Shown in pieces: positions 34,462 to 42,004 of a DNA stretch of 64,000 nt (position 1 is the first letter of the stretch; each line of letters begins with the position of its first letter). Below the pieces are notes generated by a model. That model made no database searches, was not told the DNA's origin, and saw only the letters and a program-made list of their open reading frames with translations. Origin of the DNA: Plantactinospora sp. BC1 (lineage in GTDB: Bacteria; Actinomycetota; Actinomycetes; Mycobacteriales; Micromonosporaceae); the NCBI RefSeq assembly GCF_003030345.1, contig NZ_CP028158.1, positions 3,596,001-3,660,000 of the forward strand. The letters run 5' to 3'. Position numbers and translations under genes: made by a program.

Positions 34462-35280
34462 GTGCCCGAAGGCGACACCGTGTGGAACACCGCCCGTGCG
34501 CTGCACCGTGCCCTGGCCGGCGACCGGCTGACCGCCACCGACTTCCGGGTGCCCCGACTGGCCACCACCGACCTGACCGGCGCGACCGTGCTGGAGTCCG
34601 CCGCCCGGGGCAAGCACCTGCTGCTGCGCCTGCGTACCCCGGACGACGAGGCGCAGCTCACCCTCCACTCGCACCTGCGGATGGACGGAGCCTGGCGGAC
34701 GTACGCCCCGGGGGAGCGCTGGGCGGCCCGCCCCGCGCACACCATCCGGGTGGTGCTGCGTACCGCCGCCTCGGTGGCGGTCGGCTACCACCTGCACGAT
34801 CTCGCCCTGGTTCCCACCGCCGAGGAGCGGTCGCTGGTCGGGCACCTCGGGCCCGACCTGCTCGGCCCGGACTGGGACCCGGCCGAGGCGGTACGCCGGC
34901 TCGCCGCCCAGCCCGGCCGGAGCATCGCCGAGGCGCTGCTCGACCAGACCAACCTGGCCGGGATCGGCAACCTCTACAAGTCCGAGCTGCTCTTTCTGCG
35001 CGGCGTGTCGCCGTGGACGCCGGTCCGGGAGGTTCCGGACCTGCCCGGCATGGTGGCCCTGGCGCACCGGCTGCTGATGGCGAACCGGGGACGGTGGACG
35101 CAGAGCACGACCGGGTCGCTGCACCGGGGCCGGACCAGTTACGTCTACGGCCGCCGGGCCGAACCGTGCCGCCGCTGCGGCTCGACGATCCGGAAGCGGG
35201 AGCAGGACGACCGGGTCACCTACTGGTGCCCGGCCTGCCAACCGGAGCCGGGGCGCCGCCCCGGGCGCCCCGCGCACTGA
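34462..35280 (+). CDS. nei: Endonuclease VIII-like DNA glycosylase/AP lyase
   Basis: A 272-residue Fpg/Nei glycosylase that removes oxidised bases and cuts at the abasic site. The N-terminal catalytic PEGDTV follows the GTG-coded Met. The helix-two-turn-helix has LLDQTNLAGIGNLYKSELL (given as DQTNLAGIGNLYKSE, about 161-175). A C-terminal zinc finger, CRRCGS...YWCPAC (about 233-257), is complete. GTG at 34462 follows GGATGGAGG. Nei sits next to lhr in mycobacteria; here four genes intervene, so a repair neighbourhood is partly preserved. Confidence 0.92.
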   Translation: MPEGDTVWNTARALHRALAGDRLTATDFRVPRLATTDLTGATVLESAARGKHLLLRLRTPDDEAQLTLHSHLRMDGAWRTYAPGERWAARPAHTIRVVLRTAASVAVGYHLHDLALVPTAEERSLVGHLGPDLLGPDWDPAEAVRRLAAQPGRSIAEALLDQTNLAGIGNLYKSELLFLRGVSPWTPVREVPDLPGMVALAHRLLMANRGRWTQSTTGSLHRGRTSYVYGRRAEPCRRCGSTIRKREQDDRVTYWCPACQPEPGRRPGRPAH

Positions 35281-35605
35281 GGACCGCCGGCACACCGGCC
35301 ACCGCAGCCGACCACGGCAACCGGGCGCCGCAGGAGGAGCCTGTCGCCCGGCCCGCCGACCGGCGGCTCGACCGCCCGCCACGTACCGAGGGTCACCCCA
35401 GAACCCGGCGCGGTCGGATGTGCCAATCCGAAGTCGAGACGCTTTCACCAGCCTGGCGACCGTATCCAACACTGGCGGTAAGCGGTTGACTGCTTACGGA
35501 TCGTCAGCAGCTCACCGGGCGGGTCAGCGCGGACCGGCGCCGGATCTTCGGGCACTGACGGACGGAGCGGTCCTGAGCTGATCTTCCCGGGGAAGGGGTG
35601 CGGTC
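35281..35605. other. Intergenic region upstream of the multicopper-oxidase-like gene
   Basis: These 325 bases contain no supported gene. The first half is GC-rich. The second half holds GTAAGC (35478-35483) and GCTTAC (35492-35497), an inverted repeat around TTGACT at 35486-35491 that could be a -35 box under repressor control, but no good -10 follows. A GGGGAAGGGG run at about 35590 is the ribosome site of the next gene. Confidence 0.5.
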
Positions 35606-38600
35606 ATGTTCAAGAGGTTCGCGGCAAGCCGGGCGGCCCGGGCGGAGCAGGCCAGGCGACAGGGCGGGGAGAGCGGAGCGGCCGGCACCGGCCGGGCGGC
35701 GGGTACGGTGGTGCCGGCCGCCCGGACCAGCACCGATCCGCTGCCGGCGGTCACCCCGGACCCGACCGCCGCGCCGGACTACTTCGGCTTCGTACCCAAC
35801 TTCGCGTACAGTCCGCTGCCGGTCTGCGACCCCGGCGGGCGGGTGGTCCCCGGCACCGGGATCCGGAAGTTCGTCGCCGCGCTGCCCCGGACCGGCGACA
35901 CCCCCAACGAACTGGGCAACCTGATCCCGGTCGCGGTGCCGGACACCACCACCTACCCGGGCTGCGACTACTACGAGATCGGTGTGCAGGAGTTCCACCA
36001 GCGGCTGCATCCCGACCTGCCGCCGACCCGGCTGCGCGGGTACCGGCAGCTCAACAACGGGACCGACGCCACCGGGCACAACACGGTCAGCCCGCCGGTC
36101 CGGCCGTACCATCTCGGCCCGCTGATCCTGGCCCAGCGGGACCGTCCGGTCCGGGTCAAGTACGTCAACCGGCTGCCGGTCGGCGAGGCCGGCGCGCTCT
36201 TCCTGCCGGTGGACCCGACCCTGCCCGGCGCCGGTACGGGTCCGCTCGGCGGCACCGAGCACTACCCGCAGAACCGCTCCGCCGTCCACCTGCACGGCGG
36301 GCGTACCCCGTGGATCAGCAACGGCGGCCCGACCCAGTGGACGACCCCGGCCGGCGAGCCGACCTCCTACCCGCACGGCGCCGGCCACGCCAGCGTGCCG
36401 GACATGCCCGCCCCGGGCGCCGGGGCGAGCACCGCCTACTACCCCAACCAGCAGAGCGGCCGGCTGCTCTGGTTCCACGACCAGGCGGAGGGGATCGCCC
36501 GGCTCACCGTCTATTCCGGACAGCTCGGCCTCTACCGGCTGGACGATCCGGTGCAGCGGCAACTCGTCGACGACGGCGCGCTGCCGGCCGAGGAGATCGT
36601 GCTGGTGCTCCAGGACAAGACCTTCGTACCGGACGAGGCGCAGCTCGCCGCCCAGGACCCGACCTGGGACGTGGCCCGCTGGGGCGGCGCCGGCAGCCTC
36701 TGGTTCCCGCACGTCTACATGCCGAGCCAGAACCCCTACAACGAGTCGGGGACGAACCCGATGGGGCGGTGGGACTACGGGCCCTGGTTCTGGCCGCCGT
36801 TCACCGGCATCACGCACGGGGCGGCGCCGAACCCGTACCACGACCCGGTCGCCCGGCCGTGGGAGCCGCCGGTCCAGCCGGGCACCCCGACACCGTCGGC
36901 GGTGCCGGACGCCTTTCTGGACACCCCGCTGGTCAACGGCGCCGCCTACCCGTACCTGCGGCTGCGCCCGGCCGCGTACCGGTTCCGGATCCTCAACGCC
37001 TGCAACGACCGCAGCCTCAACCTCCAGCTCTACTACGCGGCCTCGGACGCGCCGATGTGGCATCCGGACGGCACCCTGGCCGACGGCGACGCCGGGGAGG
37101 TACCGATGGTGGCGGCCCGGCCGAACCCGGACTTTCCGCCCGGCTGGCCGACCGACGGCCGGTGCGGCGGGGTCCCGGACCCGAACGCGGCCGGGCCGGA
37201 CTGGATCCAGGTCGGCTCCGAGGGCGGGCTGCTGCCGGCGGTGGCGATGCTGCCGAACCAGCCGATCGACTACCAGTACAACCGGCGGGACGTGACGGTG
37301 CTCAACGTCACCGGGCACGCCCTGCTGCTCGCCCCCGGCGAGCGCGCCGACGTGGTCGTCGACTTCTCGTCGGTGCCGCCCGGGTCGAACCTGATCCTCT
37401 ACAACGACGCTCCGGCGCCGATGCCGGGCTTCGACCCGCGCAACGACCACTACACCGGCGCCCCGGACCGGACCTCGTCGGGCGGGCCGCCGACCACCCG
37501 CCCCGGTTACGGCCCGAACACCCGGACGCTGATGCAGATCCAGGTGGTCGGCACCCCGGCTCCGCCGTTCGACACCGACCGGCTCCGGGTCGCGCTCCCC
37601 GGGGCGTACGGGCGGAGCCAGCCGCCGCCGATCGTGCCGCAGCAGGCGTACGACGCGGCGTTCGGCACCGCCACGCCCCGGAACACGTACGCCCCGATCG
37701 AGGACACCTCGCTCACCTTCACCCCGTACGGCGGCGACTCGCCGGTGACCCTGCCGCTGCGGCCGAAGGCGATCGTGGCCGAGTTCGACCCCGAGTACGG
37801 CCGGCTCAGCTACCTGCTCGGCACCGAGCTGCCGAAGACCAGTTCGCTGATCCAGACCACCATCCCGCTGACCCGGATCGACCCGCCGACCGAGGTGCTG
37901 CTCCCCTCCGACCCGTCCGCCCCGGTCGGCTCGCCCGGCGACAACACCCAGCTCTGGAAGATCACCCACAACGGGATGGACACCCAGTCCATCCACTTCC
38001 ACCACGTCAACGTCCAGCTCGTCAACCGGGTCGGCCGGGACGGGGCGATCAAGCCGCCCGAGCCGAACGAGGTCGGCTGGAAGGAAACCCTCCGGATGAA
38101 CCCGTTCGAGGCGACGGTCGTGGCGGTCCGGCCGACACTGCCCGAACCGCTGCCGTTCACCGTCCCGGACAGCGTCCGGCTGCACGACCCGACCCGACCG
38201 GCCGGTACGACCGAGGGCTACACCCAGGTCGACCCGGAGACCGGCGAGCCGGCGGCGGTGACCAACCGGCCGCAGAACTTCGGCTGGGAGTACGTCTGGC
38301 ACTGCCAACTGCTCGGCCACGCCGACGCGCAGATGACCCGGCCGATGGTGTTGCGGTTCTCGCCGGCCGCGCCGACCGGGCTCGCCGCCCGGCCGGAACC
38401 CGGCTCGGCGACCGTGCTCCCGGCGATCGTGCTGGCCTGGACGGACAACTCCCGGGGTACGGGTACGCCGGGACCGCTGGCGACCGGCTGCCTGGTGCAG
38501 CGGGCCACCGACGCCGGTTTCACCCGGGATCCGCGCAGCTTCACCGTCCCGACCGGCGACAACCGGTACGTCGACTCGACCGTCACCCCCGGACTCACCT

Positions 38601-39256
38601 ACTACTACCGGGTCCGGGCCGAGAACGGCGTCGCCCACTCGGCGTACTCGAACACCGCCAGCGCGCTCGTCCAGTTGCGGCCACCGACCGGGCTGGTCGC
38701 CACGGTGGCGAGCGGGCCGCCGCTGCGGGTCAACCGGGGCTGGGTGAACCGTTCCTTCGCCACCACGGTGGACCTGCAACGGGCCACCAACCCGACCTTC
38801 ACCAGCGGGCTGGTCACCGTCACCGTCCCGGTCACCGGGAGCTGTCCGGACCCTCGGGTCGCCCCGGACACCACCTACTACTACCGGGTGCGGACCGGCT
38901 ATCTGGGCGCCTCGTCGCCGTGGTCGAACGTCTCCACAGTGGTCACCCCGGCGGTGCCGGCGACCCCGACCGAGCTGGCGGCGAGACTCGACGGCGTGCC
39001 CGGACCCGACGCTGCCACGGTGGTGCTGACCTGGGCGGTCCCGCTGACCAGCGTGGTCGGCGGCTTCAGGCTGCACCGGGCCACCAGCCCCGGCTTCACC
39101 ACCGGGGTGACGACGCTCCGCGTGCCGGGCAGCGCCCGCTCGTTCACCGACACCGGGCTGGCCCGGGACACCGTCTACCACTACCGGATCCAGGCCGGCA
39201 ACGCCGCCGGCACCTCCGTGGTCAGCCGCGCGGTCTCGATCCGTACGCCGGCCTGA
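35606..39256 (+). CDS. Multicopper-oxidase-like protein with degenerate copper sites and three Fn3 domains
   Basis: A 1216-residue protein: multicopper-oxidase cupredoxin region (about 60-915) and three fibronectin type III repeats (about 920-1025, 1027-1118, 1120-1216; each with a YYYRV or YHYRI strand). Compared with CotA-like enzymes, HLHGG (His228, His230) is intact. The WYHDHA motif is WFHDQA, with Gln293 for a type-3 His. The HPxHxH motif is QSIHFH, with Gln794 for the type-1 His and His797/His799 kept. The HCHxxxHxxxxM motif is HCQLLGHADAQM, with Gln901 for a type-3 His and Cys900, His905, Met910 kept. So three ligands are His-to-Gln. No signal peptide is visible, only a basic N-terminus (MFKRFAASRAARAE). 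Oxidase activity is therefore doubtful; a binding or structural role is possible. Confidence 0.85.
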   Translation: MFKRFAASRAARAEQARRQGGESGAAGTGRAAGTVVPAARTSTDPLPAVTPDPTAAPDYFGFVPNFAYSPLPVCDPGGRVVPGTGIRKFVAALPRTGDTPNELGNLIPVAVPDTTTYPGCDYYEIGVQEFHQRLHPDLPPTRLRGYRQLNNGTDATGHNTVSPPVRPYHLGPLILAQRDRPVRVKYVNRLPVGEAGALFLPVDPTLPGAGTGPLGGTEHYPQNRSAVHLHGGRTPWISNGGPTQWTTPAGEPTSYPHGAGHASVPDMPAPGAGASTAYYPNQQSGRLLWFHDQAEGIARLTVYSGQLGLYRLDDPVQRQLVDDGALPAEEIVLVLQDKTFVPDEAQLAAQDPTWDVARWGGAGSLWFPHVYMPSQNPYNESGTNPMGRWDYGPWFWPPFTGITHGAAPNPYHDPVARPWEPPVQPGTPTPSAVPDAFLDTPLVNGAAYPYLRLRPAAYRFRILNACNDRSLNLQLYYAASDAPMWHPDGTLADGDAGEVPMVAARPNPDFPPGWPTDGRCGGVPDPNAAGPDWIQVGSEGGLLPAVAMLPNQPIDYQYNRRDVTVLNVTGHALLLAPGERADVVVDFSSVPPGSNLILYNDAPAPMPGFDPRNDHYTGAPDRTSSGGPPTTRPGYGPNTRTLMQIQVVGTPAPPFDTDRLRVALPGAYGRSQPPPIVPQQAYDAAFGTATPRNTYAPIEDTSLTFTPYGGDSPVTLPLRPKAIVAEFDPEYGRLSYLLGTELPKTSSLIQTTIPLTRIDPPTEVLLPSDPSAPVGSPGDNTQLWKITHNGMDTQSIHFHHVNVQLVNRVGRDGAIKPPEPNEVGWKETLRMNPFEATVVAVRPTLPEPLPFTVPDSVRLHDPTRPAGTTEGYTQVDPETGEPAAVTNRPQNFGWEYVWHCQLLGHADAQMTRPMVLRFSPAAPTGLAARPEPGSATVLPAIVLAWTDNSRGTGTPGPLATGCLVQRATDAGFTRDPRSFTVPTGDNRYVDSTVTPGLTYYYRVRAENGVAHSAYSNTASALVQLRPPTGLVATVASGPPLRVNRGWVNRSFATTVDLQRATNPTFTSGLVTVTVPVTGSCPDPRVAPDTTYYYRVRTGYLGASSPWSNVSTVVTPAVPATPTELAARLDGVPGPDAATVVLTWAVPLTSVVGGFRLHRATSPGFTTGVTTLRVPGSARSFTDTGLARDTVYHYRIQAGNAAGTSVVSRAVSIRTPA

Positions 39257-39263
39257 CGGCGGG

Positions 39264-40046
39264 CTAGGACATCGCCTGGGGGGTCGGGCCGGTACGGGAG
39301 CGCAGGTCGGCCAGGCCACCCGCCACGCCCCGGAGCAGGTCGGTCGCCTCGGTGAGCCGGATGACCGAGGAGTTGTCGTCGTACTCCCGACCCTCCTCGG
39401 CCACGAAGCCCGCCGCCGCCGCGACCAGCCGCTCGTACGCGCCGACGCCGTCGTCGAGCTGTGCCGCCAGGTGCCGCCGGGCGGCATCGAGTTCCGGACG
39501 GGTGTCGGCGGGCGCCACCCGTACCGCCCGGTCCACACTGGCCAGTCGCTCGGCGAGATCCCGAAGGGACTGCTCCGCCACCGCCGCCTCCAGCGCCGCC
39601 GGGCCGGCGGGACCGGTCAACCGGCCGGCGAGCCCGGCCATCGTGGTGGCGGCCCGGTCCAGCCGGGCCCACGGCTCGGCCGCCAGCGAGCCGCGCAACG
39701 CGATCCGGGCGCGCTGTCGGCGTACCTCGGTGAGGGCCTGACGCCCGGCGGGCAGCCGCTCGACCGCGGCGACCAGCCGGGCACGGACCTGGTCGGTGTT
39801 CACCGGCTCGGGCGCCGGTGGCACCGGCTGCGCGGCCAGCTCGCGGAGGTCCGCCCAGCGCCAGACCGCGAGCATGACCGAACCGCCGGCCGCCGCCGCC
39901 CAGGCCGCGTCCGGCAGCCCCAGCCCCTGATAGGGGGTGAGCACCGCCGCCGCGCCACCGAGGCCGCCGGCCAGCACGCTCCACCGCCGCACCGACCGAC
40001 GCAGGCTGCGCAGCCGGCGCAGGTGACGGGTTCGCAGATCCGCCAT
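39264..40046 (-). CDS. pspM: PspM-like phage-shock envelope-stress protein
   Basis: A 260-residue protein following pspA, like Rv2743c (PspM) after Rv2744c in Mycobacterium tuberculosis. A basic N-terminus (RTRHLRRLRSLRRSVRR) precedes one or two hydrophobic segments (23-60), and the remainder is a helical soluble domain. PspM is thought to anchor PspA at the membrane during envelope stress. The ATG at 40046 has GAGG five bases upstream. It ends only seven bases from the convergent multicopper-oxidase-like gene. Identification rests mainly on position and architecture. Confidence 0.75.
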   Translation of the reverse strand: MADLRTRHLRRLRSLRRSVRRWSVLAGGLGGAAAVLTPYQGLGLPDAAWAAAAGGSVMLAVWRWADLRELAAQPVPPAPEPVNTDQVRARLVAAVERLPAGRQALTEVRRQRARIALRGSLAAEPWARLDRAATTMAGLAGRLTGPAGPAALEAAVAEQSLRDLAERLASVDRAVRVAPADTRPELDAARRHLAAQLDDGVGAYERLVAAAAGFVAEEGREYDDNSSVIRLTEATDLLRGVAGGLADLRSRTGPTPQAMS

Positions 40047-40151: not shown

Positions 40152-41015
40152 TCAGCCGGCGGCGCTGCCGCCGCCGGTCTGCTTGTCCCGACCCAGGCTC
40201 GCCCGGATCTCGTCCAGCCGGGCCACCCCGGCCGGGTCGGCGGCCGGAGCCGCCGGCTCGACCGCCGGCTTGGCCGCCCCACCGGCCAGCTGCTCGCCGG
40301 CCATGCTGGACCGGATCTGCTCCAGCCGGGACGCGCCGGCCAGGTCGAGGGTGGACTTCTGGATCTCCAGCATCCGGCCCTCGACCGAGTTGCCGGCCAG
40401 CTCGGCCCGGCCCATCGCGTTGGCGTAGCGCCGCTCGATCCGGTCCCGCACCTCGTCCAGCGAGGGGGTGTTGCCCGGGGCGGCGAGCGCGGACATCGAC
40501 TCCAGCGACCTGGCCACGCTCTCCTGCATCTTGGCCTGTTCGAGCTGGCTGAGCAGCTTGGCCCGCTCGGCCAGCTTCTGCTGGAGGATCATCGAGTTGT
40601 TCTCGACCGCCCGACGCGCCTGGGCGGCGGCACCGATCGCCTGGTCGTGCAGGGACTTGAGATCCTCGGTCGACTGCTCGGCGGCGACGAGTTGGGTGGC
40701 GACCGTCTGCGCGCTCTGCTCGTATTTCGTCGCCTCGGTCTCGTCACCGGCGGCCCTGGCGCGGTCGGCGAGCACCAGGGCCTGGCGGGCCATCCCCTGC
40801 AACCGCTCGACCTCGGACATCTGCCGGGACAGCCGCATCTCGAGCTGACGCTGGTTGCCGATCACCGCGGCGGCCTGCTGGACGAGCGCCTGGTGCTGGC
40901 GCTGCGCCTCCTCGATGGCCTGCTGGATCTGCACCTTGGGATCGGCATGCTCATCGATCTTCGCGCCGAACAGCGCCATCATGTAGCGCCAGCCCTTGAC
41001 GAACGGGTTCGCCAT
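40152..41015 (-). CDS. pspA: PspA/IM30-family envelope-stress protein
   Basis: A 287-residue PspA/Vipp1-type ESCRT-III-like membrane-remodelling protein. It is almost entirely coiled coil, with the N-terminal amphipathic [20 protein letters not shown] and segments [14 protein letters not shown] and [10 protein letters not shown]. The C-terminal ~70 residues are Pro/Ala-rich with two similar segments, [11 protein letters not shown] and [15 protein letters not shown] at 41015 is chosen over the upstream ATG at 41039 because GAGGGG precedes it at a workable distance and it gives the standard N-terminus. It lies between clgR and pspM. Confidence 0.92.
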
Positions 41016-41138
41016 CTCCCGGTATCCCCTCAGTGTCATCAGTCCGGTGGCCGTGTCGGCCGGCCCAGGAAAGGCGCCCGCGCGACAGGATCTCCATCGT
41101 CCCAGGATCGCGCCACCCCGGCGTACGACCTCAGGGGG

Positions 41139-41278: not shown

Positions 41279-42004
41279 TCAGCCGACGCAGACGACGTCG
41301 CGCTCGGAACCCGCGCTCGGACGGATCCGGCGGGTGGTCCGCAGGGTCGCCTTGAGCGGCGATTCCTGCCGTACCGTCACCGAAACGGTGCCATCGGTCG
41401 CGATCTGCCGTACCGGCTCGGCACCGAGCTGGTGCACGCCGCCCTCGGCGAGGCTCCGCAGCGCCCGGTCGGCCAGCCCCGGCCCGACCAGGGACGCCTC
41501 GACCAGCGCCGACTGCGCGGCGGGCTCGGTACGGGCCGGCTCGGCCGCGGCGGCCTGCCGGGCCGGCTCGGCGGTGCCGGACTGCCGTACGGGCTCGGCG
41601 CCGACCGGCTGGCGGGCCGGCTCGGCCGCGCCGGGCTGCCGAACCGGTTCCGGGTACGTCGGAGCGGCCCGGCCGGCCTCCTCGGCCGGTCCCCCGGACT
41701 CCGGACGCCTGGCCCCGTCCCGCCCGGAGACCGGGCTCTCCTGGACCGGCACCAGCACCGCGGGCACCCCCTCGGCCACCTCGACGGTGTCGCTGACGTC
41801 GCGGAGCAGTTCGGAGAGGCGGGCGCCGAGCGCGTCGCAGATGGCGGCCAGCAGTTCGCTCGACGCCTCCTTCTGGCCGCGCTCTATCTCGGAGAGGTAG
41901 CCGAGGCTGACGTTGGCGGCGGAGGAGACCTCGCGCAGGGTTCGGTGCTGCCCCTGCCGACGGGCCCGTAGGGCGTCACCGATCACCCGGCGTAGCAGGA
42001 CCAT
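41279..42004 (-). CDS. clgR: ClgR-type XRE transcriptional activator
   Basis: A 241-residue regulator whose N-terminal helix-turn-helix reads [20 protein letters not shown] then [10 protein letters not shown], the signature of actinobacterial ClgR, which activates clp protease and psp genes. The middle (about 95-165) is a linker of five or more AEPxRQ-type repeats, a length likely to vary between strains. The C-terminus ends in DVVCVG, a hydrophobic tail that could be a Clp degron (inference). It sits before pspA-pspM, and after cinA on the same strand, as in other actinobacteria. Confidence 0.9.

Follow-up and report, generated by a model that had tools for sequence, protein, structure and literature searches.

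Loss of copper ligands in a multicopper oxidase-fold protein of Plantactinospora and related Micromonosporaceae

What becomes of a protein that has the fold of a multicopper oxidase (MCO) and an incomplete set of copper ligands is the question raised by a gene at positions 35606..39256 of a 64,000-nt stretch of the Plantactinospora sp. BC1 genome (NZ_CP028158.1), which is referred to below as the window and supplies all coordinates. The gene encodes a protein of 1216 amino acids (aa) in which Gln occupies three of the twelve positions that bind copper in CotA. Judging from the sequence comparisons described here, we think it rather probable that in this lineage a formerly secreted copper oxidase has become a cytosolic, non-oxidase structural protein, and that its copper sites were lost along more than one line of descent.

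Copper ligands of the window protein

The best match of the window protein in the PDB was to MCOs of the CotA/Bacillus bilirubin oxidase type (1gsk, 4a68, 7z5p). The phmmer alignment with CotA (E value 7e-35) included all four copper motifs, and the Pfam model Cu-oxidase_2 also detected the protein (27.7 bits, cut-off 20.4); the MCO fold is assigned from this homology. The aligned motifs (window/CotA) are VHLHGG/VHLHGG, WFHDQA/WYHDHA, TQSIHFH/THPIHLH and WHCQLLGHADAQM/WHCHILEHEDYDM. This alignment confirms the statement of the first-pass annotation that Gln is present at positions 293, 794 and 901, where CotA has His (3 of 12 ligands replaced), and that the nine other ligands (His228, 230, 291, 797, 799, 899 and 905, Cys900 and Met910) are retained. 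The features of the gene and its product are as follows.

35606..39256, + strand: 1216-aa protein with an MCO fold and fibronectin-III-like repeats, lacking part of its copper ligands (open reading frame with ATG start)
36287..36295, + strand: motif 1, His228-Leu-His230, intact (alignments with CotA and with homologues)
36476..36484, + strand: motif 2, His291-Asp-Gln293 (of the 58 degenerate relatives described below, 57 have Asn293)
37985..38002, + strand: motif 3, Gln794-Ser-Ile-His797-Phe-His799, with Gln in place of the type 1 (T1) His (alignments)
38300..38335, + strand: motif 4, His899-Cys900-Gln901...His905...Met910
38369..39253, + strand: three fibronectin-III-like (Fn3) repeats (Pfam fn3, weaker models and inspection by eye)

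The residues of the T1 and of the type 2 and type 3 (T2/T3) copper sites were taken from the list given for the B. pumilus enzyme (PMC9138216). When mapped upon this list, Q794 corresponds to a lost T1 His, which leaves the T1 set (His, Cys, His, Met) incomplete, and Q293 and Q901 correspond to lost His residues of the trinuclear centre, where 6 of the 8 histidines are left. The codons of Gln293, Gln794 and Gln901 are CAG, CAG and CAA, respectively. Under the assignments that we take to hold for the T2, T3-alpha and T3-beta coppers of CotA, the three Gln residues affect T1 and the two T3 coppers, one each, and leave the T2 site intact. By alignment, therefore, the T1 site and the T3 pair are both broken in the window copy, which is an intermediate with 9 of the 12 ligands.

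The description of the protein as having three fibronectin domains was also borne out: Pfam fn3 scored above its cut-off at residues 1138-1211, other Fn3-like models start at about residues 990 and 1064, mostly below their cut-offs, and three repeats are seen by eye in residues ~922-1216. In its own genome, a single contig of 8.33 Mb, the only match to the 1216-aa protein was itself.

Ligand sets among the relatives

A scan of genome contigs yielded 280 relatives, of which the best 80 were fetched; the later alignments and counts contain additional rows (67 for the lineage and 85 for the tree), and individual loci are designated below by L numbers. Plasmid-borne relatives were also sought, and although 51 plasmid records matched the query, none covered 80% of it. 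No literature on this lineage was present among the matches listed. The proteins of four of the six genus mates, recorded as P. mayteni, P. endophytica, P. alkalitolerans and Micromonospora sp. HM5-17, are 90, 89, 81 and 79% identical to the window copy, respectively.

All three Gln residues are common to the window copy, P. mayteni and P. endophytica, which rules out a lone outlier or a sequencing error. However, among the seven Plantactinospora sequences this set is found in only three, whereas Q901 is present in 7/7 and Q293 in 6/7. The other four carry Q293 and Q901 (L085); Q293, Q799 and Q901 (L004); Q293, E794, Q799, S900 and Q901, a set in which the T1 Cys is among the losses (L084, a close congener); or Q901 as the only replacement (P. 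alkalitolerans, L005). Between 7 and 11 of the 12 ligands are thus kept per sequence, and the T2 pair is intact in all seven. The check proposed in the first-pass annotation, whether the Gln residues are conserved in close homologues, gave a positive answer for part of the genus only. A patterned change to Gln creating a new metal site is unsupported, and as a conserved feature it is ruled out, as the congeners possess other replacement sets in which Glu and Ser are included.

Outside of Plantactinospora, L089, from a further genus, shows a different combination (Q899, G900 and Leu910, with the other nine ligands present), and L091, from another genus, has only 2 of the 12 ligands left, with Arg at position 228. 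The remaining relatives at this locus, nearly all of them from Micromonospora, Salinispora or Verrucosispora, form a clade of 58 rows, referred to here as the degenerate clade, in which 2-7 of the 12 ligands are left. A complete T1 set, a complete T3 set and the T1 Cys are each found in 0/58 of these sequences. The main replacements are Asn at 293, Ala at 230, Asp, Gly or Glu at 799 and Ser at 900, and Gln occurs at positions 901 (25/58), 899 (14/58) and 794 (8/58). The core of these proteins is nevertheless 78% identical on average. A Pfam Cu-oxidase match was absent at an E value of 0.01 from L089 and from the degenerate L015, the best PDB match of which is likewise of the CotA/Bacillus bilirubin oxidase type.

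In contrast, all 12 ligands are present in 17 of 18 sequences of the full type, the other one (L077) having 11. These are from Bacilli, Chloroflexi, a deltaproteobacterium, Hydrogenedentes, Terrabacter and others, and they also include second Micromonospora copies: three Micromonospora strains carry a full-copper copy with 12/12 ligands (L006, L007 and L052) in addition to a degenerate one (L028, L017 and L039). A subtilase and an EamA transporter are encoded near the L007 copy. In Micromonospora sp. NBS 11-29, a copy of the full-His type with the neighbourhood of the second locus (L071, 5902-9404) is split into frames of 762 and 605 aa, which could be either a natural break or an assembly error.

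The loss in the degenerate clade is concentrated on the ligands. A majority of its sequences have lost the conserved residue at 8 of the 12 ligand columns as compared to 49 of 284 other strictly conserved columns (p=3e-4; the test assumes independent columns and the rows are related), and retention is 0.40 at ligand columns and 0.81 at the non-ligand conserved columns. Decay of the whole protein as the sole cause is not supported for this clade, given the latter comparison.

Phylogeny and the route of ligand loss

A quick maximum likelihood (ML) tree of 85 rows was constructed after removal of the ligand columns and without a mixture model; its details are provisional, and long branches were flagged for L091, L047, L092 and others. 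In this tree, the syntenic copies formed one group (67 rows, SH-aLRT 97), and the full-copper copies L006, L007 and L052 branched as its sister (joint branch 100). Within the group, the seven Plantactinospora sequences (100) were separated from a clade consisting of L089, L091 and the degenerate clade (90). The minimum number of changes between the intact and lost states was 2-8 per ligand column. As L089 has His at positions 293 and 901, the simplest explanation is that Plantactinospora and the degenerate clade lost these two residues in separate events.

A change from His to Gln by CAC to CAG is a one-base, third-position, GC-neutral step. The GC content of third codon positions in the window gene is 0.956, and 23 of its 26 His codons are CAC. 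Because of this, and as Gln recurs at ligand columns, a special Gln site would not be needed to account for the pattern, an argument made without a fitted mutation model.

N-terminus and upstream region

The first-pass annotation reported no visible signal peptide, and the open reading frame and hydropathy agree with this.

35606..35662, + strand: basic/hydrophobic N-terminus MFKRFAASRAARAEQARRQ, following the pattern of the lineage and with no hydrophobic signal core
35464..35510, + strand: window part of a conserved upstream block, a likely promoter/operator (upstream alignment)

No hydrophobic N-terminal stretch was found by hydropathy, without a dedicated signal-peptide program, in the first 90 residues of the window protein (maximum KD15 0.94), and in the lineage the maximum KD15 was 1.04 from the presumed initiator Met to residue 57. 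By contrast, KD15 of at least 1.8 was reached near the N-terminus in 13 of 15 full-copper homologues from outside the family, the exceptions being L077 and L081; the N-termini of L080 and L092 were judged from one of two hydropathy scans, the stretches found by the other scan lying elsewhere. A loose pattern, M-x0-2-[FL]-[RK]-[RKM], fits 66 of the 67 lineage rows (all except L050), and a stricter version, anchored more crudely, fits 62 of 71, both counts being without a chance control.

Upstream of the gene, a block of about 75 nt is conserved at 0.67-0.90 (about -140 to -65 in L015 coordinates) versus 0.43-0.51 at about -192 to -150, the scores coming from 59 sequences among which many are closely related. 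In the window and in L089, chiefly its downstream half is recognisable. A structured leader was rejected, as there were no Rfam matches in window positions 35200-39400, no consensus fold and an alifold energy of 0. A search of the own genome for a regulon with the upstream core motif gave its own site and one site with one mismatch, versus one control match, and thus identified no regulon.

Genomic neighbourhood

The genes surrounding the MCO gene include the following.

34462..35280, + strand: Fpg/Nei-type DNA glycosylase, conserved upstream neighbour (neighbour typing)
39264..40046, - strand: Rv2743c (PspM)-family protein, convergent (Pfam Rv2743c PF25587, 97.8 bits)
40152..41039, - strand: PspA/IM30-family protein (neighbour typing)
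41279..42004, - strand: helix-turn-helix (HTH) regulator, placed where the psp operon has clgR (neighbour typing)

Genes for an lhr-type helicase, a siderophore-interacting protein, a luciferase-like monooxygenase and nei precede the MCO gene, and downstream of it, in the opposite orientation, lie rv2743c, pspA, the HTH gene, a CDP-alcohol phosphatidyltransferase gene and a gene of RimO/MiaB type; the names lhr, nei, clgR and RimO/MiaB are those we presume to apply to these Pfam-typed neighbours. The stop codons of the MCO and Rv2743c-family genes are 7 bases apart, and as the MCO and psp genes are convergent, their co-transcription is not implied. Antisense to the whole MCO gene lies an open frame of 1344 aa (35504-39538, - strand), as is commonly seen with GC-rich third positions.

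Among the 80 fetched loci, nei upstream and/or an Rv2743c-family gene downstream was found at 62/62 loci of the lineage versus 0/18 others. The nei/MCO/rv2743c-pspA locus is present in Plantactinospora, Micromonospora, Salinispora and two further genera. When 20 genomes from other genera of Micromonosporaceae were searched with the Rv2743c-family protein, 17 gave matches. In three of these (G009, G016 and G026) an MCO gene adjoins the Rv2743c-family gene, in six (L097, L098, L099, L103, L104 and L105) nei adjoins it with gaps of about 8-463 bases and no MCO gene between them, and the remaining eight have no nei in the 1.5-kb flank of this gene. Insertion of the MCO gene in one ancestor and its loss in the other genera both fit this distribution. 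The matches in 17 of 20 genomes contrast with a 2024 survey, in which PspM is described as restricted to mycobacteria and corynebacteria (PMC11237479). In another genus, a 325-aa open reading frame (L093/L113, 6382-7356, - strand) matches the Fn3 part alone (residues 913-1214, 51%) and sits away from the nei-rv2743c locus.

Comparison with known proteins

In comparison to CotA, the window protein is more than twice as long and carries C-terminal Fn3 repeats, and against its 3 replaced ligands the degenerate relatives have 5-10 of 12 replaced. SufI/FtsP is likewise an MCO-fold protein with lost ligands and serves as the precedent for the proposed end state: 2/12 ligands are kept, copper is absent and a scaffold role has been proposed (PMC2661564). 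However, SufI/FtsP of E. coli is a periplasmic, Tat-exported division protein of ~450 aa (PDB chain 2uxt, 451), whereas no export signal was seen by hydropathy in the 1216-aa window protein, and the lineage studied here is another MCO branch, one in which full-copper sisters and intermediates still exist. Identity of the window protein with SufI/FtsP was rejected (NF008135, 28.7 bits versus a cut-off of 581), and its score with the PhsA (o-aminophenol oxidase) model NF045554, 71 bits, is far under the 950-bit cut-off.

Full ligand sets are found in large, Fn3-bearing MCOs of several phyla, most of these proteins having a signal-like N-terminus. OmpB (Geobacter) is described as an MCO with a fibronectin type III domain, to which MofA (Leptothrix) is homologous, both being extracellular or outer-membrane candidates for metal redox (PMC5566968). 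Full-copper homologues such as L064 and L074, the latter with a multi-haem cytochrome two genes on, look similar to these proteins, as likened by description; the window protein shares the Fn3 part but has incomplete ligands and no signal-like N-terminus. Copper-less MCO-fold proteins are a known kind, and the observation made on the window gene is part of a wider loss in which copper sites have disappeared, in various combinations, throughout a lineage that occupies a single locus.

Interpretation and alternatives

The window gene, under the account that we favour, would belong to a lineage of former MCOs in Micromonosporaceae. The version that sits between nei and the pspA-rv2743c genes lacks a signal-like N-terminus, and it has lost copper ligands to varying degree and in varying combination, while its reading frame remained open and its N-terminus, its upstream region and most of its conserved non-ligand columns were kept. 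As one T1 and two trinuclear ligands are gone, the four-electron oxidase reaction is presumably no longer performed, and the protein would be cytosolic, beta-rich and non-catalytic, acting through its surface and Fn3 repeats as a scaffold or binding partner. Its basic N-terminus, together with the nearby pspA gene, hints at a location at the membrane, where this N-terminus might hold it. Of the two proposals made earlier, a new metal site or a non-catalytic scaffold, the second fares better, given that relatives at this locus have lost most copper ligands from a gene that is open and under selection.

Several observations weigh against this account. Both T2 histidines and the T1 Cys-His-Met are retained in the window copy, so that partial copper binding by it is possible. 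In Plantactinospora, ligand columns are not clearly distinguished from other strictly conserved columns (3/12 versus 29/284, p=0.13; Mann-Whitney p=0.03), and the counts for the window sequence alone are the same and not significant (Fisher p=0.13); the significance of ligand loss thus comes from the family-level count. L005 has His at position 293 whereas its sister L085 (99) and others have Gln, and the change at this position must have recurred, or been once reversed, within the genus. No signal-like core lies behind the likely start of L006, L007 and L052, yet they have 12/12 ligands; loss of secretion alone therefore does not explain loss of copper, and export may have been lost earlier than copper. 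The degenerate clade keeps H228 (55/58), H291 (55/58) and N293 (57/58), which is more than an inert pocket needs. The MCO part is found in 10 of 37 family genomes and 4 of 31 genera, 7 of the 10 being Plantactinospora, and whole-gene dN/dS exceeds that of pspA in 13/13 species pairs, indicating moderate constraint. The kinship among the sequences used for the upstream block counts here as well, and a role as scaffold, like any connection with PspA, is proposed from position and precedent.

The last two of the numerical observations would also fit a slow decay, in which the gene is useless in Micromonosporaceae and heading for deletion, its remainder being transient. We consider this unlikely. 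The loss of different ligands in different lines, the absence of the MCO part from 27 of 31 sampled genera, the broken frame of L066 and a core dN/dS of 0.49 between L084 and the window copy are in its favour. However, 61 of 62 syntenic loci have a single open frame of at least 1136 aa (L053 and L035 run to contig ends), and core dN/dS by NG86 is 0.17-0.26 in degenerate pairs, not above the 0.28-0.36 of full-copper Micromonospora copies; the corresponding values are 0.19-0.49 among pairs from Plantactinospora and 0.09-0.10 for two pairs from Bacilli. Whole-gene values, which are rough as the ends of the reading frames take in non-coding 5' stretches, were 0.22-0.40 for the MCO gene and 0.05-0.50 for four neighbours in the 13 species pairs. 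The MCO gene is constrained, though less so than pspA, and the conserved core of the degenerate clade and the conserved N-terminus and upstream block also speak against decay.

The residues kept in the degenerate clade, among them M910 (51/58), could instead indicate a repurposed pocket in which H228, H291 and N/Q293, joined in Plantactinospora by the T2 pair, which is always intact there, bind another metal, copper in a simpler centre or a small ligand. A different residual site of this kind is possible, but as an explanation of the lineage we regard it as distinctly unlikely: the partner in the third motif, H797, is gone in 30/58, Gln occupies positions 228 and 291 together in L051 and L090, L091 has lost His228, and no alternative full ligand set was seen. 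That the window protein is still an active MCO with Gln as ligand at three positions is very improbable, as the retention of nine ligands and the amide character of all three replacements are set against missing ligands in both the T1 and trinuclear sites and the further losses, including the T1 Cys, in the close congener L084.

Returning to the structural role favoured above, a fuller form of it would be a copper-free cytosolic component, encoded next to the PspA envelope-stress genes, that has acquired both a conserved pocket (H228/H291/N293) and a basic N-terminus, the lineage forming a living series from enzyme to non-enzyme reached by more than one route; we put this combination forward tentatively, as it is rather unlikely to hold in all its parts. 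The series itself is suggested by members halted at different steps (11, 10, 9, 7, 6 ... 2 ligands). Pseudoenzymes are mostly known as finished products, SufI being an example, whereas in the present case the end state and the intermediates coexist at one syntenic locus, alongside relatives with full copper sets. Due to this coexistence, it should be possible to measure on natural proteins in which order ligands were lost, how long copper binding persisted and where oxidase function ended. For the annotation of these genomes, the label 'multicopper oxidase' at the Micromonospora/Salinispora locus need not imply laccase activity.

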